DNA of 64,000 nucleotides from Elusimicrobiota bacterium. GTDB taxonomy: Bacteria > Elusimicrobiota > Elusimicrobia > Elusimicrobiales > UBA9959. The stretch covers positions 1 to 64,000 of the forward strand of contig WOVA01000009.1 in the NCBI GenBank assembly GCA_009773155.1, given 5' to 3'. A model generated the notes under the pieces. The model worked only from the letters and a program-made list of their open reading frames with translations, had not been told where the DNA came from and did no database searches. A program made the translations under genes and the position numbers. This document shows positions 49,610-62,982 of this stretch, piece after piece. Each line of letters begins with the position of its first letter. Within the stretch, counting starts at the first letter, position 1.

Positions 49610-50170
49610 TTATTTCTTCTCCTTCATGTCCATGCCGCACTTGGGGCAGCGGCCGGGCTTTTCGGACTGCACGCAGCCCATAGGGCAGGAGTATTTTTTC
49701 GCGGCAGGCTGTTCCTTCTTCTTCTCCACCAGGTCCATGCCGCACTTGGGGCAGCGGCCGGGCTTATCGGATTCCGCGCAGCCCATGGGGCAGACATACT
49801 TCTTCTTGACGGCCTTTTCCTTTACCGCGTATTTTTCCGGTTCCGCGGCGAAGGATCCGTCGCAGCCGGGGCAGCAGAAATAATAGACCCTGTCCTTGTA
49901 TGACATGGAGATAGTGTCTTTGTCCACCTTGACCTTCTCCCCCGTTACCGGGCAGACGGCGCTTTTGCCTATCTCCGCCCTGGTCACCTTCCTGTAGGCG
50001 GCCTCCGCTTTTTTGGCGGCGGCGGCCGCTTTCCCGGCCTTGGCCGGCGCCTCTTTTTTGACGGCCTGGTGCTTGTGGCCCTCATGACCGCTATGGTCGT
50101 GCTGGGCGTAGGCCGCCCCCGCCAGCAGCAGCGGCGTCAGCAGCGCTGTTATCATCATGTTCCGTTTCAT
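49610..50170 (-). CDS. Exported YHS/TRASH plus double heavy-metal-binding-domain protein
   Basis: The 186-residue product has a signal peptide, a His-rich stretch (HDHSGHEGHKH), a YHS/TRASH-like module (CPVTGEKVKVDKD, YYFCCPGCDGSFAAEPEKY) and two copies of a heavy-metal-binding domain (CPMGCAESDKPGRCPKCGM and CPMGCVQSEKPGRCPKCGM). The two copies are 105 bases apart at DNA level. It should bind soft metals, probably copper, in the periplasm. It is the last gene of the 12-gene metal/sulfur run and overlaps the previous gene by 4 bases. Confidence 0.85.
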   Translation of the reverse strand: MKRNMMITALLTPLLLAGAAYAQHDHSGHEGHKHQAVKKEAPAKAGKAAAAAKKAEAAYRKVTRAEIGKSAVCPVTGEKVKVDKDTISMSYKDRVYYFCCPGCDGSFAAEPEKYAVKEKAVKKKYVCPMGCAESDKPGRCPKCGMDLVEKKKEQPAAKKYSCPMGCVQSEKPGRCPKCGMDMKEKK

Positions 50171-50382
50171 GCTTCCTCCTTATCCCGATCCCGGCAGCAG
50201 CCGCCTTCGGCGGCCTGTTCCTGCCCGTAAAGCTCTTCGGCCCGGCAGCAGATGCGCTCTTTGTCGGCCGCCACCCTGCCGCAGCCGGGACAGATATACC
50301 TGGCGTTCCTGGCCGCTTCTTTCAATTCCCCGAACAGTTCTTTCTTGTCCGCCATCTCGCATAGATGCGCTTTCTTTTCCAT
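50167..50382 (-). CDS. Small Cys-rich zinc-ribbon-like protein
   Basis: The 71-residue cytoplasmic protein has YICPGCGRVAADKERICC and a C-terminal GGCCRD, giving two CxxC/CC pairs that could form one metal site. Its N-terminal segment (MEKKAHLCEMADKKEL) has another Cys. AGGAGG lies eight bases before the ATG. It sits between the ThiF-rhodanese gene and the exported metal-binding protein. A role as a thiol-rich metal buffer is inference. Confidence 0.72.
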   Translation of the reverse strand: MEKKAHLCEMADKKELFGELKEAARNARYICPGCGRVAADKERICCRAEELYGQEQAAEGGCCRDRDKEEA

Positions 50383-50395
50383 ACTCGCCCTCCTC

Positions 50396-51493
50396 CTAAT
50401 ACCGCGTCAGCGTTCTGTCTATCCTCCCGGACCAGGCGTCCAGGCCGCCTTCCAGCACGGAAACGTCCGTAAAGCCCCCGGCCTTAAGGGCGCGCCAGGC
50501 CGCGACGGCCTTGCTCCGGCCCTTGCAGTAGAGGACTATCTCCTCCTGTTGTCCTAAGCCGGCTCCGGTCCTAAGCAGTTCTTCGTGGTCCACCCACTCG
50601 TCGCCGGCGATATGGACCAGGTCGTGCTCCCATTCATAGCGCAGGTCCAGCAGGCGGGGCGGGCGCGGGCCGGACAGTTTGTCCCTGAGCGCTTCGGGCG
50701 TGATATAGTCCGGTTCGACGGACTTCAGGAACGCGCGATCGGCGGAAGCTCTGGCGCCGCAGACCGGGCAATCCTCCCTGCGCTTCAGTTCGGCGACGGT
50801 GAAGCCGCCGAGGCGGAAGTCCAGCATGACGAACCTGTCCCTGAGCGTCTCGAAGCCGAGTATCAGTTTCAGCACTTCCAGCGCCTGCATGGAGGCTACG
50901 GCGCCCGCCGCCGGCCCCATCACGCCCGCTTCCGCGCAGACCTGGGCCTCGGCGTCCTCCGTCCGGGGGCATAGGCAGGCCAGGCAGGCCCCGCGGCCCG
51001 GTGAGAAGACGGTCAACTGCCCTTCGAACTGGTAGACGGCCGCGTGCACATAGGTCTTCCCGAGCTCCAGGCAGGCCCGGTTTATGGCCGCGCGCGCCGT
51101 GAAATTGTCGGTGCAGTCGGCGATGTAATCATAGCCGGCCAGCGCGCCGCTCATGTTCCCGGATGTCAGCAGGCCCTCCCGGGTGTTGACCCTGATCCCC
51201 GGGTTTATTTCCGCCAGTTTCCGCGCGGCCAGCCCGGTCTTGAGCTTTCCCACGTCGTCCGTGCCGTAAACGAACTGGCGGTGCAGGTTGGACAGTTCGA
51301 CGGGGCCGAAGTCGAAGACGCCTATCTCCCCCACGCCCGCGCCGGCCAGGTATGCCATGACTATATTCCCCAGGCCGCCGGCGCCGACCACGGCCACCCT
51401 GGCGGCTTTGAGCCTTTCCTGCCCCTCCGGCCCCACGCCCGGTATCACCAGCTGGCGGGAATAGCGTATGAGTTCTTCCTTCGACAGGGTCAT
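50396..51493 (-). CDS. ThiF/MoeB-type adenylyltransferase with C-terminal rhodanese (MoeZ-like)
   Basis: The 365-residue protein has an E1-like domain with GAGGLGNIVMAYLAGAGVG, DNFTARAAIN and two CxxC zinc pairs (CLACLCP, CPVCGA), then a rhodanese domain (~265-365) with catalytic Cys in VLYCKGRSKA. MoeZ-type enzymes adenylate the C terminus of a ThiS/MoaD-like carrier and load sulfur on it. No carrier gene is visible nearby. Neighbouring PLP enzymes recall the mycobacterial MoeZ-CysO-CysM cysteine route, but the homology here is to cystathionine enzymes. It starts one base after the gamma-lyase stop. Confidence 0.9.
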   Translation of the reverse strand: MTLSKEELIRYSRQLVIPGVGPEGQERLKAARVAVVGAGGLGNIVMAYLAGAGVGEIGVFDFGPVELSNLHRQFVYGTDDVGKLKTGLAARKLAEINPGIRVNTREGLLTSGNMSGALAGYDYIADCTDNFTARAAINRACLELGKTYVHAAVYQFEGQLTVFSPGRGACLACLCPRTEDAEAQVCAEAGVMGPAAGAVASMQALEVLKLILGFETLRDRFVMLDFRLGGFTVAELKRREDCPVCGARASADRAFLKSVEPDYITPEALRDKLSGPRPPRLLDLRYEWEHDLVHIAGDEWVDHEELLRTGAGLGQQEEIVLYCKGRSKAVAAWRALKAGGFTDVSVLEGGLDAWSGRIDRTLTRY

Positions 51494-51494
51494 A

Positions 51495-52634
51495 TCATTT
51501 CAAGGCCCGCGCCAGGTCCTCCAGCAGGTCGTCGGAATTCTCGATGCCCGCGGAGAGGCGGACCAGGCCCGCGGTTATCCCGCGCTTGAGGCGGTCGCGC
51601 TCCGGTATCGCGGCGTGCGTCATCGCCGCCGGGTAGCAGGCGAGCGACTCCACGCCGCCGAGACTCTCGGCCAGCGAGAAGATCTTCAACCGCCTGAAGA
51701 AGCTCTCCGCCGCCGGCCGTCCCCCTTTGAGTTCGAAGCCGACCATGCCGCCGCAGCCGTCCATCTGGCGGCCGGCCAGCTCATGCCCCGGGTGGCTTTC
51801 CAGGCCGGGATAATAGACCTTCGACACCGCGGGATGGCGCGAGAGCGCCGCCGCGATCGCGAAGGCGTTGGCTTCGTGCGCCTTCATGCGCACGGACAAA
51901 GTCTTGATGCCGCGCAGCGTCAGCCAGGCGTCCCACGGCCCGGGTACCGCGCCGGCGGCGTTCTGGTAGAACTTCACCGCCTCGAAAACGCACTTGTCTT
52001 TGATCGCCAGCAGGCCGCCTATCACGTCGCTGTGGCCGCCGAGGTACTTGGTGGAACTGTGCACCACTATGTCGGCGCCCAGTTCCGCGGGCCGCTGGAA
52101 ATACGGGGTGGCGAAGGTATTGTCCACGGCGAGCAGCGCTTTTCCTTTGCGGGCCGTCTCCGCTACGGCCGCTATGTCGGTGATATTGAGCAGCGGGTTG
52201 GTGGGTGTTTCCACCCAGACCAGGCGCGTACTGCGGCGCATGGCCCTTTTGAACGAGGCGGGGTCTTTGGAGTCGGCGTAGGATATCTCCAGCCCCCAGT
52301 GCCGGAAGACCTTCTCAAAGAGCCGGTATGTCCCGCCGTAGAGGTCGTCGCCGGCCACAACATGGTCGCCCTTCTTCAGCAGGCCGCCCAGCACGGCCGT
52401 TTCGGCCGCCAGGCCCGAAGCGAAAGCCAGGCCGTATTTAACCCCTTCCAGCGCCGCTATGCAGTCCTCCAGCGCCTTCCTCGTCGGGTTGCCGGTGCGG
52501 GAGTATTCCCAGCCCCGGTCGCGCCCGATGCCGTCCTGCTTATAAGTGGAGGTCTGGTATACCGGCACGCTGACCGAACCGGTCTGCCTGTCGGCCGCCT
52601 GGCCCGCGTGTATCAGCGCCGTCTCGAAGTTCAT
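51495..52634 (-). CDS. Cystathionine gamma-synthase/gamma-lyase family PLP enzyme
   Basis: The 379-residue enzyme has EYSRTGNPTRKALE, the Tyr in GDDLYGGTYRL, ETPTNPLLNITDI, the PLP lysine in SSTKYLGGHSDVIGG and a C-terminal AGIENSDDLLEDL. Members make or split cystathionine; next to a cystathionine beta-synthase-like gene, lyase activity giving cysteine is more likely. The start giving MNFETALIHAG overlaps the beta-synthase stop (ATGA). It belongs to the 12-gene metal/sulfur run. Confidence 0.92.
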   Translation of the reverse strand: MNFETALIHAGQAADRQTGSVSVPVYQTSTYKQDGIGRDRGWEYSRTGNPTRKALEDCIAALEGVKYGLAFASGLAAETAVLGGLLKKGDHVVAGDDLYGGTYRLFEKVFRHWGLEISYADSKDPASFKRAMRRSTRLVWVETPTNPLLNITDIAAVAETARKGKALLAVDNTFATPYFQRPAELGADIVVHSSTKYLGGHSDVIGGLLAIKDKCVFEAVKFYQNAAGAVPGPWDAWLTLRGIKTLSVRMKAHEANAFAIAAALSRHPAVSKVYYPGLESHPGHELAGRQMDGCGGMVGFELKGGRPAAESFFRRLKIFSLAESLGGVESLACYPAAMTHAAIPERDRLKRGITAGLVRLSAGIENSDDLLEDLARALK

Positions 52635-53623
52635 ATAACGGTCTCCCTGGGCAGGCCGCGGCCGGCCAGCCAATCGTCGTCGTACATTTTTGAAAGATAC
52701 TTGTTGCCGGTGTCGCAGACGAATGTGACTACGCGTTTGGGCGTTTTACTCTCCCGGCAGTAACGCAGGGCCGCCGCCAGCAGCGTTCCCGAAGAGGAGC
52801 CGGCCAGCACGCCCTCGGCGCGCAGCAGTTCCCGCGCGGCGGCGAAACTCTCGGCATCGGTCACCGTATAGGCCCCGGCCACGCGCGACAGGTCGGCTAT
52901 CGGAGGAATGAAGTCCTCGCCTATGCCTTCCACCAGCCAGGAGCCGGCCTTTCCCGTCGTTCCGTCCCTGACGTAGCCGGCCAGCACCGAGCCCGCCGGG
53001 TCGGCCAGGACGAATTCGGCGGCGGGCGATACGCGCGAGAAATAGCGGGAGAGGCCGGTCATGGTGCCGCCGGAACCTACTCCGCATACGATGGCGTCGA
53101 CCTTATGGTCCATCTGTTCCCATATCTCCGGGCCCGTAGTCTTTTCGTGCGCGTCCGGGTTGGCGGGATTGGCGAACTGGTTGATGTAGAAGCTGTCCGG
53201 AGTTTCCCCGGCTATGCGCTCCGCCATTTCCTGGTAGTACTCGGGGTGGCCCTTCTCCACGTCGGAGCGGGTAACCACTATCCGGGCGCCGAGCGCGCGC
53301 AGGTGGGAGATCTTCTCCCGGCTCATCTTGTCGGGGATCACGAGGGTAAGGTTGTAGCCCTTCTGCGCGGCCACCAGCGCCAGGCCCAGGCCCGTGTTGC
53401 CCGCGGTGGCCTCCACCAGCGTGGAGCCGGGGCGCAGTTTCCCTTCCTTCTCGGCGGCGGTGATCATGGAGAGCGCTATCCGGTCCTTAATGGAGCCGCC
53501 GGGGTTCTGGCACTCCAGTTTCAGGAAAAGTTCGCACCTGCCCGCGTCCAGCTTCCGCGCCTTCAGCAGCGGCGTATTCCCTATCAGGTCGAGCACGGTG
53601 CCGGTATTTCTGGTTTCTTCCAT
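52631..53623 (-). CDS. Cystathionine beta-synthase-like/cysteine synthase family PLP enzyme
   Basis: The 330-residue fold-type II PLP enzyme has the lysine in GGSIKDRIA, the substrate loop EATAGNTGLGLAL, and GVGSGGTMTGLSRYF for the phosphate. The end VTFVCDTGNKYLSKMYDDDWL (trim: CDTGNKYLSKMYDDDW) is typical of cystathionine beta-synthase rather than CysK. No CBS regulatory domains follow. With the gamma-lyase it would form a reverse transsulfuration pair turning homocysteine and serine into cysteine. It starts 15 bases after copA. Confidence 0.9.
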   Translation of the reverse strand: MEETRNTGTVLDLIGNTPLLKARKLDAGRCELFLKLECQNPGGSIKDRIALSMITAAEKEGKLRPGSTLVEATAGNTGLGLALVAAQKGYNLTLVIPDKMSREKISHLRALGARIVVTRSDVEKGHPEYYQEMAERIAGETPDSFYINQFANPANPDAHEKTTGPEIWEQMDHKVDAIVCGVGSGGTMTGLSRYFSRVSPAAEFVLADPAGSVLAGYVRDGTTGKAGSWLVEGIGEDFIPPIADLSRVAGAYTVTDAESFAAARELLRAEGVLAGSSSGTLLAAALRYCRESKTPKRVVTFVCDTGNKYLSKMYDDDWLAGRGLPRETVI

Positions 53624-53638
53624 GACGGTTCTCCCGTA

Positions 53639-55843
53639 CTACAACTTCAGCTTTCTGAGGCGCAGGGAGTTGACGACAACGGAAACGGAACTCATCGCCA
53701 TGGCTCCCCCCGCGAAGTAAGGCGGTATCAACAGCCCCCAGACGGGATACAGGACGCCGGCGGCCAGGGGCACGAGCGCCGCGTTATAGGCGAAGGCCCA
53801 GACGAGGTTCTGCGTTATATTGCGCCTGATCGCTTTTGCGAGTTTTAAAGCCTGCGCCACGCCCGCTATGCCGTTGTGCATGAGGGTGATGTCGCTGGCC
53901 TTGACGGCTATGTCCGCGCCTGACCTGAGGGCTATTCCTATGTCCGCTTCCGAAAGGGCGGCGGCATCGTTGAAACCGTCCCCCACAAACGCCACCTTCG
54001 CGCCCAGGGCTTTGTGGCGCATGATTATGCCGCTCTTCTCTTCCGGGAAGATCTCGGCGTAAAATTCTTCGATCCCCAGGGTCCCGGCCAGGGCCTCCAC
54101 GGCGGCCCGCCTGTCGCCGGAAGCTATTACCGGCTTTATGCCCATAGCGGTCAGTCCGGCCACCAGCCCGGCGGCTTCCGGCCTGAGCGTGTCGGAAAGT
54201 TCGGCGTAGCCCCTGAAGATCCCGTTCTCCGCGAGCAGCAGCAGAGAGCCGGCGGAAGCCTTTATCTCCGCCGCCGCCTCGTCCGGCACCGGCACGCCAA
54301 GTTCGGCGAACCACTTGGCGCTGCCGGCCATGATCTCGCCGCCGCCAGCCTTCACTTTAATTCCCTTGCCCGGCACCGCTTCAACGGAGTCCGGTTTCCG
54401 ATGGACAATATGGCGTTCCCGGGCGTATAGCCGCACCGCCTCGGCGAAGGGATGTTCGGAGCTCTCTTCCGCGCTCAGCAGGAGCGACAGGAACTGCGGC
54501 TCGCTTATCGCCCGCGGGCGCACGGCGGAGACTTTCATGCGCCCTTCCGTAAGCGTTCCGGTCTTGTCGAAGATGATAACGTCTATTTTCGGAATGCGTT
54601 CAAGCGCTTCCGCGTTATTGATCAGCATCCCGAGTTCCGCCGCCCGGCCGAAGCCCACGGACACCGCCATCGGCACCGCCAGGCCCATGGCGCAGGGGCA
54701 GGCCACGGCCAGTACCGCCGCGAAAACGCCGACGGCGCGCGGGAGGTCGGCGTAATGAAGCCACACTCCGCCCGCGCCAAGGGCCAGCAGGATAACGGCC
54801 GGCACGAAATACGACGAGATGCGGTCCACCAGCCGCTGCACGGAGTTCTTGCCCGCCTGGCTTTCTTCCACGGCCTTGATGATCTTCATCAGCGCCATGT
54901 CCTCTCCCACGCCGGTGGCGGTGAACTCCAGCGCGCCGGTCTTGTTTATGGTCCCGGCGTAGAGCTTCGCCCCCGGCGCCTTGTCCTGCGGCACCGGCTC
55001 GCCGGTCAGCAGAGCCTCGTCCACGCTGGAGAAACCGCCGAGGACGGCGCCGTCCACCGGCACCTGCTCGCCGGGGCGCAGGCGTATGACGTCCCCGGGC
55101 AGAATGCTTTCCGCCGGCACCACTTCCTCGGCGCCGTCCTTAAGGCGCCTGGCGGTTTTCGGCGCTAATTTAAAAAGCCCGGACACGGCCTCCGCGGCTT
55201 TGCTTTTGGAGCGCGCCTCCAGCCAGCGTCCGAGGTTTATAAAAGTTATCAGCATGGCCACTTCATGCCATTGGGCGTGCTGGTGCGCGCCGGCGAGGCG
55301 CGGGAAGAAGGTTATGGCCAGACCGTAGAAAAATATGACGCTGGTGCTCAGGGAAACCAGCGTGTTCATGTCGGCGGTGCGGGCTTTAAGCGCCCGCAGC
55401 AGGCCTGCGTGGAAATGGGAGCCGCACCAGCCCCAGGCCAGGGCCGCCGCCGCCATGACCGTATACGGCGGCAGGTCCGCGGCGAGTTCCAGCAGTGTGT
55501 AGCCGGTCAGGGCCAGCGCGGCCAGGAATTTTACCCGGAACAGGCGTTTCTCCTCTTCCAGGCCGGCCGTGGCGATATTCTCCGCCTTGGCCGGCGACTC
55601 CAGGACGCCCAGGGCTTTATAGCCCAGTTCGGCTATCCGGTCCGCGAGCTGCGCCGGTCCGACCCCGGCGGGGTCGTATAGAATAAAGGCGGTTCTGGAG
55701 GGCAGGTTTACGGATACCCGTTTCATGCCCGGAACTTTTTCCAGGCCTGTTTCGATGCGGCTTACGCAGCTGGCGCAATGTACGCCTTCGAGCGGGATCA
55801 CCGCTTTTTTCAGGTTTTCTTCCGGGCTGACGAGGCGCTTCAT
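53639..55843 (-). CDS. copA: Copper-type P1B ATPase
   Basis: The 734-residue pump exports soft metal ions, most likely Cu(I). It has one N-terminal HMA domain with GVHCASC (Cys at 23 and 26), eight expected membrane helices, the CPC motif in AVACPCAMGLAVP near 384, the phosphorylation site DKTGTLTEG near 425, the HP locus SSEHPFAEAV and GDGFNDAAALSEADIGIA. The start MKRLVSPEEN was chosen since upstream codons run into the cusA 3' end. It lies 25 bases after cusA, so cytoplasmic and periplasmic efflux share one transcript. Confidence 0.95.
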   Translation of the reverse strand: MKRLVSPEENLKKAVIPLEGVHCASCVSRIETGLEKVPGMKRVSVNLPSRTAFILYDPAGVGPAQLADRIAELGYKALGVLESPAKAENIATAGLEEEKRLFRVKFLAALALTGYTLLELAADLPPYTVMAAAALAWGWCGSHFHAGLLRALKARTADMNTLVSLSTSVIFFYGLAITFFPRLAGAHQHAQWHEVAMLITFINLGRWLEARSKSKAAEAVSGLFKLAPKTARRLKDGAEEVVPAESILPGDVIRLRPGEQVPVDGAVLGGFSSVDEALLTGEPVPQDKAPGAKLYAGTINKTGALEFTATGVGEDMALMKIIKAVEESQAGKNSVQRLVDRISSYFVPAVILLALGAGGVWLHYADLPRAVGVFAAVLAVACPCAMGLAVPMAVSVGFGRAAELGMLINNAEALERIPKIDVIIFDKTGTLTEGRMKVSAVRPRAISEPQFLSLLLSAEESSEHPFAEAVRLYARERHIVHRKPDSVEAVPGKGIKVKAGGGEIMAGSAKWFAELGVPVPDEAAAEIKASAGSLLLLAENGIFRGYAELSDTLRPEAAGLVAGLTAMGIKPVIASGDRRAAVEALAGTLGIEEFYAEIFPEEKSGIIMRHKALGAKVAFVGDGFNDAAALSEADIGIALRSGADIAVKASDITLMHNGIAGVAQALKLAKAIRRNITQNLVWAFAYNAALVPLAAGVLYPVWGLLIPPYFAGGAMAMSSVSVVVNSLRLRKLKL

Positions 55844-55868: not shown

Positions 55869-58800
55869 TCAAGTATACTGCCGCATCTCGTCGGACGCCC
55901 CTGTTTCGCGCTTCTTCCACAGGTAGAACACCACCGGGTAGACCAGCAGTTCAAGCGCGAAGCTGGTGAACAGGCCGCCTATCATCGGCGCGGCTATGCG
56001 CTTCATCACGTCGGCCCCCGTGCCCAGCGACCACATTATGGGGATAAGTCCCATGAAGGCGGTCATCACGGTCATCATCTTGGGCCGCACGCGCTTGACC
56101 GCGCCGTGCACGACGGCTTCCTGGAGGTTTTTCAGCGTGAACGGGCGCCCGCTCTTGCGGAGTTCCTCGTAAGCGAGGTCCAGGTAGAGCAGCATGAACA
56201 TGCCGGTCTCGGCGTCTAGGCCCATCAGGGCGATCATGCCCACCCAGACCGCTATCGACATGTTATAGTCGAGCAGCCAGACGAACCACACGGCCCCGAT
56301 GAGCGAGAACGGCACGGCCAGCAGGACGATGCCGGTCTTGACCGCCGACTTCGTGTTCATGTAGATCAGCAGGCAGATAAGGAAGAGAGTGAGCGGCAGC
56401 ACGAACGTCAGGCGCTCGCGCACGCGGAGCATGTTCTCGTACTGCCCGCTCCATTGCAGCGAATATCCCGGCGGCAGCTTCACGTGGCCGGCCACCATGC
56501 GCTTGGCGTTCTTCACGTAGGTCCCCACGTCCACGCCCGCGATGTCCACGTAGACGTAGCCGGAGAGCAGGCCGTTCTCGTTGCGTATCATCGCGGGGCC
56601 CGAGCGGAAGACGATGTCGGCCAGCTGGCCCAGCGGCACGTTCACCCCGTTCTCCGCCGTAACCAGCACGCGCCTGAGCTTGTCGACGTCGTCGCGGAAA
56701 TCCCGGGCGTAGCGCACGTTGACGGAGTAGCGCTCCCGGCCCTCCACCGTGGTGGTCAGGTTCTGGCCGCCGATGGCGGTCATCAGCGCCATCTGCGCCT
56801 CTTTCACGGTAAGGCCGTAGCGGGCGAGCTGGTCGCGCCGCAGCTCGAAGTCGAGGAAGTAGCCGCCGGCGGTGCGCTCGGCGTAGACGCTGCGGGTGCC
56901 CTTGACCTGGCGCACGATCCGCTCCACCTCCAGGCCGGTCTCCTCTATGGTCTTGAGGTCCGAGCCGAAGATCTTGATGCCCACGGGGGTGCGCACGCCG
57001 GTGCTGAGCATGTCGATGCGGGCTTTTATCGGCATGGTCCAGGCGTTGGATACCCCGGGGAACCGCATTTTCGAATCTATTTCGTCTATCAGTTCGTCCC
57101 AGGTCATCCTGTCGTACCAGACCCGGCGCAGCGCCGCTTTAAGGAACTCCGGCGCCCAGGACGAGTACCAGCGGTCCTTGCCGCGCCACTGGTCCATCGG
57201 CTTGAGCACCGCGACCGTCTCCATCATCGAGAACGGCGCGGGGTCGGTGGAGGTGTCCGCGCGGCCCGCCTTGCCGTGGACGCGCTCCACTTCCGGGATG
57301 GATTTGAGTATCCTGTCCTGCGCCTGCATAAGCCGCTGCGCCTCGGTGATCGAGATGCCGGGCAGGGTGGTCGGCATATAGAGGATAGTGCCTTCGTTGA
57401 GCGGGGGCATGAACTCGGAGCCGATCTTAAGATAGACGGGTATAGTGGTGAGCACCAGGACCAGCGCTCCCGCCAGCACCTTTCGCGGGTGTTCCAGCGT
57501 CCAGCGGCAGACGGGCTCGTAGACCCTGAAGAGCCGCCGCGAGACCGGGTGCTTTTCCTCGGGATAATATTTCCCTACGGTGACGGCGTTGACCAGGCCG
57601 GAGAGCCAGGCCGGACGGAAATGGACATAGTCCATGCGGGTGAACATCATGCGCAGCGCCGGGTCCAGCGTTATGGCCAGTATGGCGGCGACGAACATCG
57701 TCAGGTTCTTGGTGTAGGCCAGCGGCTTGAAGAGGCGGCCTTCCTGGTCCACAAGGGTGAAGATCGGCAGGAAAGCCACGGCTATCACCAGCAGGGCGTA
57801 GAAGACCGACGGGCCCACCTCCTGCAGCGCCTCCAGGCGCACGGCGTGGAAGTCGCCTTTGCGCCCCCCGGCCTCCCAGTGTTCCAGTTTCTTGTAGGCG
57901 TTCTCCACCTCGACTATGGCGCCGTCCACCAGCACGCCTATGGAGATGGCTATGCCGGCCAGCGACATGATGTTGGAACTGATGCCGGCCAGGTACATCG
58001 GGATGAAGGCCAGCAGGACCGCCACCGGGATGGTCACGATGGGTATTATCGCCGAGGGGATGTGCCAGAGGAAGAAAAGTATGACAAGGCTGACTATTAT
58101 CATCTCCACCGTGAGCTGGCTTTTGAGCGTGGCGATGGCGCGCTTGATGAGGTCGGAGCGGTCGTACGTGGTCAGTATCTCCATCCCTTCCGGCAGCGAG
58201 GTCTTTATTTCCTCCAGGCGTTCCTTGACGCGCTCTATCACGGTGAGCGCGTTCTCGCCGTGGCGCATGACCACTATGCCGCCCACGGCGTCCCCCTCGC
58301 CGTCGAGGTCCCCGAGGCCGCGGCGCATTTCCGGCGCGGCCGTCACCTTCGCCACGCTTTTGACCAGGACGGGGGTGCCGCCGGGGCCGCGGGCGGCCAC
58401 CACTATCTCCTCTATGTCCCTTATGGATTTGGCGTAGCCCCTGCCGCGGATCATGTACTCGGCGCCGGCGTACTCTATCAGGCGGGCGCCGGTCTCCTCG
58501 TTCCCCTCCTGTACGGCCTTCATGACCGCGCCGATCGAAATTCCGTGGGCGGCCAGCGCGTCCGGATCGAGGTTGACCTGGTACTGCTTCTGGAAGCCGC
58601 CGAAAGCCGCCACCTCGGCCACGCCCGGCACCGACTGCAGCTGGTAGCGCAGGTTCCAGTCCTGGAAGGAACGCAGTTCGGCCAGGTCGTGGCGGCCGGT
58701 CCTGTCCACGAGGGCGTACTGGTAGATCCAGCCCACGCCGGTGGCGTCGGGGCCCAGCTCGGTCCTGACGCCGTCGGGCAGCTGCGGCAGGATCTTGCTG

Positions 58801-59138
58801 AGGTATTCCAGCACGCGCGAGCGCGCCCAGTAGATGTCGGTGCCGTCCTCGAAGATGACGTAGACGTAGGAGAAGCCGAAATCGGAGAAGCCGCGGATGG
58901 TCTTCACGCCGGGCAGGCCGAGCAGGGAGGCAATGACCGGGTAGGTGACCTGGTCCTCGATGACGTCCGGCGAGCGGTCCCACCGGGAGTAGACGATGAC
59001 CTGCGTGTCGGAGAGGTCCGGTATGGCGTCGAGACTGATGTTCTTTACGGAGTAGACGCCCGCCGCGACCGCGGCCAGCGCTATTATCAGCACCAGTACC
59101 CGGTTATTGGCGGAGAAAGATATGATGTTCCGTATCAT
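55869..59138 (-). CDS. cusA: Heavy-metal efflux RND pump, inner-membrane subunit (CusA/CzcA family)
   Basis: CusA is the proton-driven trimeric pump that moves metal ions from the periplasm out through CusBC. The 1089-residue product shows the family plan: N-terminal helix, IPDLSDTQVIVYSRWDRSP (trimmed), GAIVEVENAYKKLEHWE with TM4 acidic residues, GSEFMPPLNEGTILYMP and GMIALMGLDAETGMFMLLYL. Methionines FMPPLNEG and pore residues fit Cu/Ag members. It ends with a short charged tail. It starts 7 bases after cusB. Confidence 0.96.
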   Translation of the reverse strand: MIRNIISFSANNRVLVLIIALAAVAAGVYSVKNISLDAIPDLSDTQVIVYSRWDRSPDVIEDQVTYPVIASLLGLPGVKTIRGFSDFGFSYVYVIFEDGTDIYWARSRVLEYLSKILPQLPDGVRTELGPDATGVGWIYQYALVDRTGRHDLAELRSFQDWNLRYQLQSVPGVAEVAAFGGFQKQYQVNLDPDALAAHGISIGAVMKAVQEGNEETGARLIEYAGAEYMIRGRGYAKSIRDIEEIVVAARGPGGTPVLVKSVAKVTAAPEMRRGLGDLDGEGDAVGGIVVMRHGENALTVIERVKERLEEIKTSLPEGMEILTTYDRSDLIKRAIATLKSQLTVEMIIVSLVILFFLWHIPSAIIPIVTIPVAVLLAFIPMYLAGISSNIMSLAGIAISIGVLVDGAIVEVENAYKKLEHWEAGGRKGDFHAVRLEALQEVGPSVFYALLVIAVAFLPIFTLVDQEGRLFKPLAYTKNLTMFVAAILAITLDPALRMMFTRMDYVHFRPAWLSGLVNAVTVGKYYPEEKHPVSRRLFRVYEPVCRWTLEHPRKVLAGALVLVLTTIPVYLKIGSEFMPPLNEGTILYMPTTLPGISITEAQRLMQAQDRILKSIPEVERVHGKAGRADTSTDPAPFSMMETVAVLKPMDQWRGKDRWYSSWAPEFLKAALRRVWYDRMTWDELIDEIDSKMRFPGVSNAWTMPIKARIDMLSTGVRTPVGIKIFGSDLKTIEETGLEVERIVRQVKGTRSVYAERTAGGYFLDFELRRDQLARYGLTVKEAQMALMTAIGGQNLTTTVEGRERYSVNVRYARDFRDDVDKLRRVLVTAENGVNVPLGQLADIVFRSGPAMIRNENGLLSGYVYVDIAGVDVGTYVKNAKRMVAGHVKLPPGYSLQWSGQYENMLRVRERLTFVLPLTLFLICLLIYMNTKSAVKTGIVLLAVPFSLIGAVWFVWLLDYNMSIAVWVGMIALMGLDAETGMFMLLYLDLAYEELRKSGRPFTLKNLQEAVVHGAVKRVRPKMMTVMTAFMGLIPIMWSLGTGADVMKRIAAPMIGGLFTSFALELLVYPVVFYLWKKRETGASDEMRQYT

Positions 59139-59145
59139 AAGCCTG

Positions 59146-60291
59146 TCAGTCCCCCAGGGCCGCCCGCATCCTGGACTCCGAGTCTATCAGGAAGTTGGCC
59201 GAGGTCACTACCTTCTCTCCGGCGGAGACGCCCGAGCGCACCTCCACGTAGTCCCCGCCCCGCCTGCCGGTGCGGACCTCGCGCGGCTCGAAGACGCCGC
59301 CGTCCTTCATAACGAAGACCAGCTCCTTCTCGCCCGTGTCGAGCACGGCGCCGGCGGGCACCGTCAGCGCCGTGCCGAGGCCGGCCTCTATGCGGACCTC
59401 CACGTACATCTCCGGGCGCAGTTCCAGGGCCGGGTTCTCCGTTTCTATCCTGGCGCGCAGGGTGCGCGTCTCCCCGGAAAGTACCGGGTCCAGCGAGCGC
59501 ACGACGCCGTAAAAATCCCTGCCCGGCCAGGCGCGGGACCGTATGGCGGCCTTCTGGCCCGGCTTCACGGCCGCGGAGTCGTATTCGTAGACCTGCGCGT
59601 AAACCCAGGCCCGCTCGCGCGGCAGCAGCAGGTTCTCGAAACTCGCGGAGTCCCCTTCGGCCTCCGCCAGCTGGCCTTCGTCGAGGCCGAGCTGCAGCAG
59701 CCGCAGCCTGGCGGCGTCAGCCAGCGCGGCCGCCCGTTCCCTGGCGTCCGGCCAGCCGCTCCGCTTCATGCGGTCGCGCGCGGCCGCGGCCTCGCGGTAT
59801 TCGGTCACGGCGCTGTAGAGAGCGGGATCGTACGCGACCTTTCCGGTGGCGCTGATCGTCCTGGCCAGGCCGCGCCAGGCGGCGACGCCGGTCTTGAGGC
59901 CTATCAGCTGCTGTTTTTCCGGCGTGAGCGTGACCATGCCGTGCCCCGGAACCTGCGACTTGCGCTCCCCGCCGGCCGCGGCTTCCTTTTTGACGAGGTG
60001 CATGTTGCAGATCGGGCAGTCGCCCGGCCTGTCCGAGGTAACGTCCGGGTGCATCGGGCAGTAGTACAGATCCGCCGGCGGCGCGGGAGCCTCTTTCTTT
60101 ACCAGATGCATATTGCAGATCGGGCAGTCTCCCGGACTGTCGGAGGTGACGTCCGGGTGCATCGGGCAGTAGTACAGTTCGGCCTGCGTGTGAGCGCGGC
60201 CGCCGTCGTAGTGCTTCCAGGCGGCGTAGCCGCCTCCGAGCAGCAGCGCCGCTCCCAGCGCGGCGGCGGCGAGTCTTGACCTGGAAATCAT
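59146..60291 (-). CDS. cusB: Efflux periplasmic adaptor CusB with two N-terminal heavy-metal-binding domains
   Basis: The adaptor links CusA to CusC and hands over metal. The 381-residue protein has a membrane anchor (LAAAALGAALLLGGGYAAW), two heavy-metal-binding domains at 38-66 and 74-102 (each YYCPMHPDVTSD...GDCPICNMHLVKKE), then the membrane-fusion beta-barrel and hairpin domains (VSAGEKVVTSANFLID at the end). Duplication of the metal domain is uncommon. The start MISRSRLAAA was chosen since it overlaps the cusC stop in ATGA. Confidence 0.94.
   Translation of the reverse strand: MISRSRLAAAALGAALLLGGGYAAWKHYDGGRAHTQAELYYCPMHPDVTSDSPGDCPICNMHLVKKEAPAPPADLYYCPMHPDVTSDRPGDCPICNMHLVKKEAAAGGERKSQVPGHGMVTLTPEKQQLIGLKTGVAAWRGLARTISATGKVAYDPALYSAVTEYREAAAARDRMKRSGWPDARERAAALADAARLRLLQLGLDEGQLAEAEGDSASFENLLLPRERAWVYAQVYEYDSAAVKPGQKAAIRSRAWPGRDFYGVVRSLDPVLSGETRTLRARIETENPALELRPEMYVEVRIEAGLGTALTVPAGAVLDTGEKELVFVMKDGGVFEPREVRTGRRGGDYVEVRSGVSAGEKVVTSANFLIDSESRMRAALGD
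60001..60177 (-). repeat. Tandem 108-bp duplication encoding the CusB metal-binding domains
   Basis: The segments 60001-60069 and 60109-60177 are near-identical over 69 bases with a 108-base period (36 codons). Several substitutions separate them, so the duplication is not an assembly artefact. It doubles the CPMHPDVTSD domain. Confidence 0.9.
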
Positions 60292-61511
60292 AAGCCTTCT
60301 CCTGTTATGGACATTTTGCGGGCCCGCCAATAGGCGTACTCGGCCCGGGACCGGTAAGATTCGCGTTGTACTTCCAGCAGCGCGCGGCCGGCCTCGATGA
60401 GTTCGAGGAAAGATGTCTGCCCGGCCTCGTAAGAAGTCCGGGATGCCTTGAGCGCCTGTTCGGCCTGCAGGACGGCGGAGTCATAGATATGGATGAGGTT
60501 GGCGCAGCAGTCCAGCTCCAGCACCGCGGACTTGAGCTCCAGCAGCAGCGCGTTGCGGGCGGCGTTGTATTCCGCCTCGGCCATGGCCCGCTCCGCCTTG
60601 GCCTCCCGCAGTTCCGCCTTGTTGCGGCCGAACCATAAGGGCAAGGTCAACCCCAGCGACATGTCGTAAGTGCCGTCCATCGCGGCGCTGTCGGCGGAGC
60701 GGCGCCGCAGCCCCACCATGAAGTCCGGCGCGTAGCCGGCCTTGGCCCGCGTCACTTTGCTGTCGTAAGCCCCGACCCTGGCCCTGAGCGCCTTGAGCAG
60801 GGGATTGTCGGCCAGCGCCGCCGCTTCCAGGGCGGCGTAATCGGCGGGTTCCGGCGAGAAATCCTCCTCCTCCGGAGCGCCGACGGCGGCGGCCGGCGGG
60901 CGGTTGCGCAGCGCGTTGAGCCGCGCCGCCGCGATTCCCTTTTTCTGTGTCGCTTCCAGCAGCAGTCCCTGCGCCTTTGAAAGCTCGACCTGCGCTTTCA
61001 GCGCGTCGGCCTGGGAGCCCCGCCCGGCCGCGTAGCGGCTTTCGGCGGCCCGCGCGAAGCCGCGCAGGAGCTCCAGGTTCTCCGTGTAAAGGCGCTCTGT
61101 GCGGGTCGACAGCAGGTAGTTGTGAAAGGCTTCCACCGCCTCCGCCAGCACCTTGTTGGCGCGTTCCCCGGAGAGCCCCTTGTAATATGAGCTTTCGCCC
61201 AGCGCGGCGTTCCTCGCCAGCCGGGACTTGTAGGGATTCCTGAATTCCTGCCGCACGGCGATCGTCCGCTCCGCGGCGCCGGCCCCCAGCGGGCCGTCGG
61301 CGTACATGCGCTCGAATTCAAGGACAGGGTCCATCGGCAGCCAGGACTGGCGTACCCGGGCGGCGGCGGCTTTTGAGAGGCCGGCCGCGGCGGCTATCTC
61401 CGGGTTGGCGGCCCTGACCTCCTCCAGGAACGACTGGAGGGCAAGGCGCGGCCCCTCCCCAGCGCAGAGTGTTGGCGTTAAAAATAAAAAAAACGCGACG
61501 ATCGGTTTCAT
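60288..61511 (-). CDS. cusC: TolC-family outer-membrane factor (CusC/CzcC-like)
   Basis: The 407-residue protein has a signal peptide (MKPIVAFFLFLTPTLCAG) and the two alpha-helical/beta repeats of outer membrane factors: LEEVRAANPEIAAAAGLS, FLELIEAGRALLEVQRE and SYEAGQ. It forms the outer-membrane channel for the CusA-CusB pump. It starts 7 bases after the small membrane protein gene and overlaps cusB by 4 bases. Confidence 0.92.
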   Translation of the reverse strand: MKPIVAFFLFLTPTLCAGEGPRLALQSFLEEVRAANPEIAAAAGLSKAAAARVRQSWLPMDPVLEFERMYADGPLGAGAAERTIAVRQEFRNPYKSRLARNAALGESSYYKGLSGERANKVLAEAVEAFHNYLLSTRTERLYTENLELLRGFARAAESRYAAGRGSQADALKAQVELSKAQGLLLEATQKKGIAAARLNALRNRPPAAAVGAPEEEDFSPEPADYAALEAAALADNPLLKALRARVGAYDSKVTRAKAGYAPDFMVGLRRRSADSAAMDGTYDMSLGLTLPLWFGRNKAELREAKAERAMAEAEYNAARNALLLELKSAVLELDCCANLIHIYDSAVLQAEQALKASRTSYEAGQTSFLELIEAGRALLEVQRESYRSRAEYAYWRARKMSITGEGL

Positions 61512-61518
61512 AACTCCC

Positions 61519-61770
61519 TCATCTCAGCCTGGCCGCCAGGGCGTTGAGCCCGGGCAGATGGTAAAGCACGACTCCGGCCAGCACCAGCAGGTAGGCGAGA
61601 CCGGTCAGGACAGCGGCCTTCGCGAGCTTCCGTCCCCGGTCCGTGATGGACGGGTCTTTAAGCGCCAGCACGCCGAAGGCCACTGCCATAGCGGCTTTCT
61701 CCACCCCGAAAAAATGAATAAAAGAGAATACCCCCATTGTAAGGGCGGCCAGGGCCAGTTTAGTGGACAT
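61519..61770 (-). CDS. Small membrane protein (DUF4190-like)
   Basis: The 83-residue protein has two membrane helices (KLALAALTMGVFSFIHFFG... and AAVLTGLAYLLVLAGVVLYHL) with a short loop DPSITDRGRKLA, a layout like DUF4190 domains. It overlaps the anti-sigma gene by 11 bases and cusC follows after 7. A role in the metal system is suggested only by position. Confidence 0.65.
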   Translation of the reverse strand: MSTKLALAALTMGVFSFIHFFGVEKAAMAVAFGVLALKDPSITDRGRKLAKAAVLTGLAYLLVLAGVVLYHLPGLNALAARLR

Positions 61771-62302
61771 AAGTTTTCTCCATAGCGCAGGACTTGCACG
61801 GGCAAAGATGGCCCTTCCCGGCTTCGCGCATGCAGCCGCACAGATAGGCGGAGCATTCGTTGCAGAGCCTGGCCACCGCCACGGGGTTGATGATGCTGGA
61901 GGGCCGGAGCATCTGCGCCACGGTCTTTTTCGCCAGTTCCCCGCGCTGAACGCTTTCAAGGGCGCCGGCGTTGAGCGCGAAAGTAAGGGCGTTGAGCAGT
62001 ATGAACGCCGAGAGCGCGACGGCGGCGGGGGCCGGCAGCCGCAGGAAGCGCAGCAGGGAGGACCGTTCCCGCTCCAGCGCCGCGGCGGCCGCGGCTACTC
62101 GCGCGGCGAAGAAAGGAGGCGGCTCCGCGGCCGGCAGGGCCCGCAGGCCGCTTTCGGCCGTCCGCATCCGGTCAAGGGCGGCGGCGCAGGAGGGGCAGCC
62201 TTTGAGATGTTCTTCCAGCCGGCCCGCTCCGGCCGGTGTAAGCTCGCCGTCCATATAGGCCGACAGGTTCCGCAGGTGTCCGCAGTTTTTCTGGTCGGGC
62301 AT
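61760..62302 (-). CDS. Zinc-finger anti-sigma factor with Cys-rich periplasmic tail
   Basis: The 180-residue protein has an N-terminal zf-HC2 anti-sigma domain (Cys7, then HLKGCPSC at ~30-37), one membrane helix (AVALSAFILLNALTFALN, ~98-118) and a tail with seven cysteines at about 147, 150, 155, 157, 167, 169 and 172 (CNEC, CGC, CPCKSC). The tail should lie in the periplasm, where Cu could bind. I infer that metal binding releases the sigma factor. The ATG start has GAGGAC upstream; a TTG eight codons earlier is less likely. Confidence 0.85.
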   Translation of the reverse strand: MPDQKNCGHLRNLSAYMDGELTPAGAGRLEEHLKGCPSCAAALDRMRTAESGLRALPAAEPPPFFAARVAAAAAALERERSSLLRFLRLPAPAAVALSAFILLNALTFALNAGALESVQRGELAKKTVAQMLRPSSIINPVAVARLCNECSAYLCGCMREAGKGHLCPCKSCAMEKTYVH

Positions 62303-62931: not shown

Positions 62932-62982
62932 TAGACTATTCTACTTTATCGGGCCGCCGACCGAGGCCGTTGGTTCGGCCGC

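Follow-up and report, generated by a model that had tools for sequence, protein, structure and literature searches.

A minus-strand gene at 61760–62302 of the window, a 64,000-nucleotide stretch of contig WOVA01000009.1 from an Elusimicrobiota bacterium, encodes an anti-sigma factor with a zf-HC2 domain, a single membrane helix and a seven-cysteine tail, and this one chain probably serves as a metal-responsive control of Cu(I)/Ag(I) export. The module to which it belongs very probably has a Cu-regulatory role, and the tail is likely to be its metal sensor. That the anti-sigma factor is itself a one-component Cu(I) sensor, its helix signalling directly to the zinc domain with no partner sensor, is a somewhat less than even prospect; it would put the protein where the CusRS two-component system stands in Escherichia coli. 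The features of the module are listed below.

62938–62943, minus: TAGAAT, a housekeeping-like -10 box immediately upstream of the sigma start codon
62353–62931, minus: ECF sigma factor, 192 aa
62322–62349, minus: candidate ECF promoter GCAAGTTT-N13-CGTTGAA, one mismatch to the shared pattern
61760–62302, minus: zf-HC2 anti-sigma factor, 180 aa, one membrane helix and a cysteine tail
62183–62272, minus: zf-HC2 zinc-binding anti-sigma domain core, residues 11–40 (Pfam)
61964–62032, minus: predicted single membrane helix, residues 91–113 (AlphaFold2 and hydrophobicity)
61787–61864, minus: seven-cysteine cluster CNEC..CGC..CPCKSC, residues 147–172
61519–61770, minus: small membrane protein, 83 aa, DUF4190-like (below the Pfam cut-off)
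60288–61511, minus: TolC/CusC-type outer-membrane efflux protein
59146–60291, minus: CusB-type adaptor with two HMBD metal-binding repeats
55869–59138, minus: CusA-type RND pump with E. coli CusA M573/M623/M672 conserved
53639–55843, minus: CopA-type Cu(I) P-type ATPase with an HMA domain

Domains and orientation of the anti-sigma factor

The gene coordinates given in the initial annotation hold, with the ATG at 62302 and the stop codon at 61760–61762 on the minus strand, and the zf-HC2 domain, single membrane helix and seven-cysteine tail (CNEC, CGC, CPCKSC) that it described are confirmed by Pfam, hydrophobicity and the sequence itself. Residues 11–40 match Pfam zf-HC2 at 42.1 bits (cut-off 22.2), and the Hx3Cx2C zinc signature (H32, C36 and C39) is present in 19 of 19 orthologues. 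According to one survey, this signature identifies zinc-binding class I anti-sigma factors, in which fused domains are conserved within groups (PMC7406223). A sequence search with the protein matched RsiW (E 3e-7), and Foldseek gave a weak match to RsiW (5wuq, E 0.03) for the anti-sigma domain only. The AlphaFold2 model behind the latter search, built from 19 sequences, has a mean pLDDT of 74.3 and a pTM of 0.35; its anti-sigma domain is confident and its tail weak (tail block pLDDT 46–72). The best reading is a class I zinc-type anti-sigma factor, which we propose holds back the adjacent ECF sigma factor. RsiW and RslA, its best solved-structure matches, have the same zinc-type domain; to our knowledge, both are without a cysteine-rich tail and respond to other signals.

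A single hydrophobic stretch (KD 1.97 from residue 92) is found in the protein, and likewise one in each of the 19 orthologues; for the window protein, AlphaFold2 places a helix there at residues 91–113. Because there is one membrane helix and the sigma-binding domain has to be cytoplasmic, N-in/C-out is the likeliest orientation, and the tail would lie on the periplasmic side as first suggested. By charge bias, 13 of the 19 orthologues favour N-in, 3 are tied and 3 point the other way.

Composition and distribution of the cysteine tail

Exactly seven cysteines (C147, C150, C155, C157, C167, C169 and C172) fall within the last 34 residues. At an assumed cysteine frequency of 1.3%, the binomial probability of at least seven in 34 residues is 2.5e-7, and conservation among orthologues is the stronger test. 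All seven cysteine columns are retained in 16/19 orthologues, six in the tails of G029 and G147, which are otherwise rearranged, and four in that of G007. The rest of the tail is well conserved too (its non-cysteine columns average 0.73, those of the anti-sigma domain 0.62), so conservation does not single out the cysteines. Eighteen other zf-HC2 proteins from related genomes have at most three cysteines per 34-residue stretch after the zinc finger.

A tail profile searched against 340 Elusimicrobiota genomes gave 19 strong matches (E 4.8e-22 or better, own genome included), all within the window’s family of 59 genomes; since the tail recurs in this one family, mostly with its full set of cysteines, it is, on the sequences compared, not a chance feature. 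A full-length search of 61 genomes returned 11 further full-length orthologues of the anti-sigma factor. Two narrow patterns scanned against the GTDB collection, and thus little informative on distant phyla, yielded 16 confirmed tail loci among 106 candidates; 12 of these records bear the name Elusimicrobiota or that of one of its groups, and the other 4 are labelled simply ‘bacterium’, and the genomes named are all metagenome assemblies. A plasmid search for relatives outside the phylum gave only four weak partial matches (best E 0.6). Weak matches outside the family in G073 (E = 1.7e-4) and G253 (E = 0.0076) lie in frames of 56 and 46 aa, respectively, and were discarded as chance; operon homologues were absent from the stretch around the former (L087).

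No convincing match to any Pfam metal-binding family, HMBD included, was found for 12 tails. A diverged HMBD was considered for its CPxCxM look, strongest in G029 and G147, and was rejected on the lack of a PF19335 match at E ≤ 10 in the 12 tails, a test in which HMMER filters may discard weak matches. The tail may be a metal-binding module that has no name in Pfam and is so far confined to one Elusimicrobiota family. The conserved C-terminal ‘VH’ was rejected as a metal ligand because these two codons, read in a different frame, form the start of the following gene (ATGTCCACT); the 11-nt overlap at 61760–61770 thus forces the shared Val-His.

Conserved gene neighbourhood

At 19 of 19 loci the anti-sigma gene is followed by a DUF4190-like membrane protein of 83–85 aa and then by a heavy-metal RND efflux set, in line with the expectation that the cysteines would be conserved in orthologues beside efflux genes. 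The HMBD adaptor is in the same stretch at 18/19 loci, and the contig of the 19th ends before it. The sigma gene accompanies the anti-sigma gene in 16/19 stretches; in the other three genomes, all examined, the sigma orthologue lies elsewhere, further off. At an E-value of 1e-25 or better, a sigma orthologue was found in 0 of 7 tail-less genomes examined. Loss of the cysteines in relatives with the same operon was not seen: eight tail-less Cus operons in relatives (L088–L095) exist without this regulator, and homologues of the sigma factor, anti-sigma factor and small protein are absent from the 8.7–13 kb examined at each, so these do not represent a cysteine loss.

The sole constant neighbour between the anti-sigma and efflux genes is the small membrane protein. 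The tail could be a metal buffer or structural site while this protein or the efflux adaptor is the real sensor, acting on the anti-sigma factor as CnrX does on CnrY. Its presence at every locus, a start overlapping the anti-sigma gene in 16/19 (by 11 nt in the window) and a conserved SFVHLFGVEKA segment favour such a role, but it is cysteine-free in all 19 aligned rows and has little sequence besides two hydrophobic stretches, and we regard this arrangement as rather improbable. At the G033 and G016 loci, the RND pump downstream of the anti-sigma gene is not the usual one, and the anti-sigma/small-protein pair therefore looks portable between metal pumps.

Transporter evidence for the metal

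Tail binding of Cu(I) or Zn(II) had been suggested; the neighbouring genes point to Cu(I)/Ag(I), and Zn(II) is the less favoured of the two. The window pump is identical to E. coli CusA at 490 of 1038 aligned residues and keeps M573, M623, M672, D405, E939 and K984, of which we take the first three to be the CusA methionine triad and the others likewise to be positions known from the literature. The triad is present in 15/15 module pumps long enough to test, that of G033 included; this count excludes L036, L039 and L085, where contigs end, and L037, whose partial and doubtful alignment gives R, A and a gap. It also occurs in all eight Cus pumps without the module and thus marks the pump, not the module. 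The P-type ATPase after cusA is of the Cu type (513.6 bits, cut-off 397) and has an HMA domain.

Zn, Cd and Hg are bound well by sites made up of cysteine alone. This general property and the different pump in G033 and G016 would suit a system that answers one or more of these other soft metals, with the copper genes in the regulon for other reasons; however, every testable module pump has the triad, and at the loci examined the three contrast HME-RND pumps that lack it (L096–L098) occur without this module in front, which makes such a system very improbable.

Promoters and the sigma factor

An ECF-type promoter pattern, GCAAGTTT-N13-CGTTAAA, is conserved upstream of the anti-sigma genes and is inferred to be read by the sigma factor. 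The window copy lies in the gap that separates the sigma gene from the anti-sigma gene, 19 nt upstream of the ATG of the latter. With zero to three mismatches the pattern occurs within 200 nt of 18/19 anti-sigma genes (exact at 11 loci, one mismatch at 4 including the window, two at 2 and three at 1), and at L037 an exact site lies further upstream, before a longer frame; the best match in 950 simple shuffles had four mismatches (12 times). Across the 59 family genomes there are 15 exact sites, all within 13 of the 19 module genomes. With up to one mismatch allowed, sites are found in 17/19 module genomes versus 4/40 other family genomes, and a backwards control pattern matched 10/59 family genomes. 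Exact or one-mismatch copies also stand before copA in G149 and between the sigma gene and copA in G034, and both copA products exceed the Cu-ATPase cut-off. Further sites precede a second RND set in G016 and genes between the sigma and anti-sigma genes in G146 and G151; in G149, one exact site precedes a secreted-protein gene and a one-mismatch site follows the sigma gene. A terminator hairpin was rejected as an explanation of the motif because CCGCAA/TTGCGG pairing, seen by eye in some copies, is lost in others that still have the two boxes and the 13-base gap between them.

Upstream of the sigma gene itself, TARAAT occurs within 55 nt in 14/16 loci (1.9% of shuffles), and the ECF pattern was found at fewer than four mismatches in 0/16; the sigma start is uncertain in two of these 16 loci (L033 and L035). 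This combination suggests that the sigma gene is not self-regulated.

TARAAT stands 5–9 nt before start codons at 62938–62943 and at five other places in the window. All six cases precede frames of at least 90 aa, which suggests leaderless transcripts in this genome.

Proposed mechanism

From the observed gene order, conservation, promoter-like motif and Cu-type transporters, we infer the following course of events. At rest, the cytoplasmic zf-HC2 domain would keep the adjacent ECF sigma factor tethered to the membrane. A rise in periplasmic Cu(I), or Ag(I), would be met by binding to the CxxC, CxC and CPCxxC motifs of the tail, and the signal would cross through the single membrane helix, or the protein would be exposed to proteolysis, freeing the sigma factor. 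An RseP homologue is encoded in this genome, which proves nothing for this anti-sigma factor. The freed sigma factor would read its motif before the genes for the anti-sigma factor, the small membrane protein and cusCBA, and copA would be driven too, by readthrough in the window and from its own site in some relatives. With the sigma factor made from a housekeeping-type promoter, induction would raise the inhibitor and not the sigma factor, amounting to a built-in negative feedback.

The same cysteines could instead form a periplasmic thiol redox sensor, in which copper-driven or oxidative stress makes or breaks disulfides, with no binding of metal as such, in the manner of RsrA-like chemistry moved outside. 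The tail has several CxxC/CxC pairs, and the periplasm tends to oxidise cysteines; this would fit, as would DsbA-like CxxC proteins in the G016 and G149 copper clusters (likeness by eye) and the cysteines of Caulobacter NrsF, which function without a demonstrated metal site in the available text of that study (PMC3511200). The promoter sites, however, lead mostly to copper exporters and to no recognised thiol-repair gene, and seven cysteines with surrounding Met and His suit soft-metal binding better than a single disulfide switch; redox sensing is accordingly judged unlikely, and metal sensing by the tail is the reading we prefer.

Relation to known systems

The earlier generalisation, that in characterised metal-sensing systems of this kind the sensor is a protein apart from the anti-sigma factor, proved too broad. 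In Caulobacter, NrsF restrains sigma F as a single chain and needs two periplasmic cysteines to do so; C131/C181 substitution increases sigma F output and sets sigma F free, and dichromate does likewise (PMC3511200). Combining periplasmic cysteines that matter for sigma release with anti-sigma activity in one chain is thus already known from NrsF. A Caulobacter sigF mutant is copper-sensitive (PMC8224329), and sigma F is not strongly self-regulated under metal stress (PMC3511200, PMC8224329), as is suggested for the window sigma factor. NrsF, however, is predicted to span the membrane with six helices and conserves two cysteines, in contrast to the one helix, zf-HC2 domain and seven clustered cysteines here, and the regulon described for it differs.

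The separate sensor is a feature of CnrYXH of Cupriavidus metallidurans (PMC4803752), in which, as proposed here, an ECF sigma factor and a membrane anti-sigma factor control an adjacent heavy-metal RND operon; that system has a separate CnrX, the class II anti-sigma factor CnrY and a response to Ni/Co (PMC4803752, PMC7406223), whereas the present one has a class I zinc-type anti-sigma factor, a Cu-type pump and apparently no CnrX-like gene. CorE of Myxococcus, with CorE2, likewise joins a cysteine-rich domain to ECF control of metal genes, copper in the case of CorE, but there the domain is on the sigma factor and cytoplasmic, with no linked anti-sigma factor (PMC3107203, PMC8999054); CorE-type systems are named as copper- or metal-responsive ECFs in two further papers (PMC10141476, PMC8103513). 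The window sigma factor has zero cysteines in 192 aa and therefore no such domain, the cysteines being on the anti-sigma factor. A non-exhaustive search of the open-licence literature found no description of a cus operon whose zf-HC2 anti-sigma factor carries a cysteine-rich tail.

The protein is a good candidate for a one-piece copper sensor. If it is one, metal sensing outside and transcription inside would be connected by a very simple layout of one chain and one helix. For a phylum in which little genetics has been done, the module offers a concrete copper regulon, predicted promoter included. It also suggests an additional route to the control of Cu(I) export besides CusRS and CorE.

Additional genes near copA

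Three further groups of minus-strand genes were observed after copA. At 50396–53623 are genes for a PALP/CysK-like enzyme, a Cys/Met-metabolism PLP enzyme and a ThiF-rhodanese protein; similar genes follow the RND genes in L033, L034, L035 and L040 (by eye). The copper response may include the supply of sulfur. A 186-aa protein with a His-rich N-terminus and YHS and HMBD domains, likely a secreted metal-binding protein, is encoded at 49610–50170. The gene at 50167–50382 encodes a 71-aa cysteine-rich protein with no Pfam match, and a similar cysteine-rich protein of 62 aa is found in the copper cluster of G032 (L036, 5551–5739).
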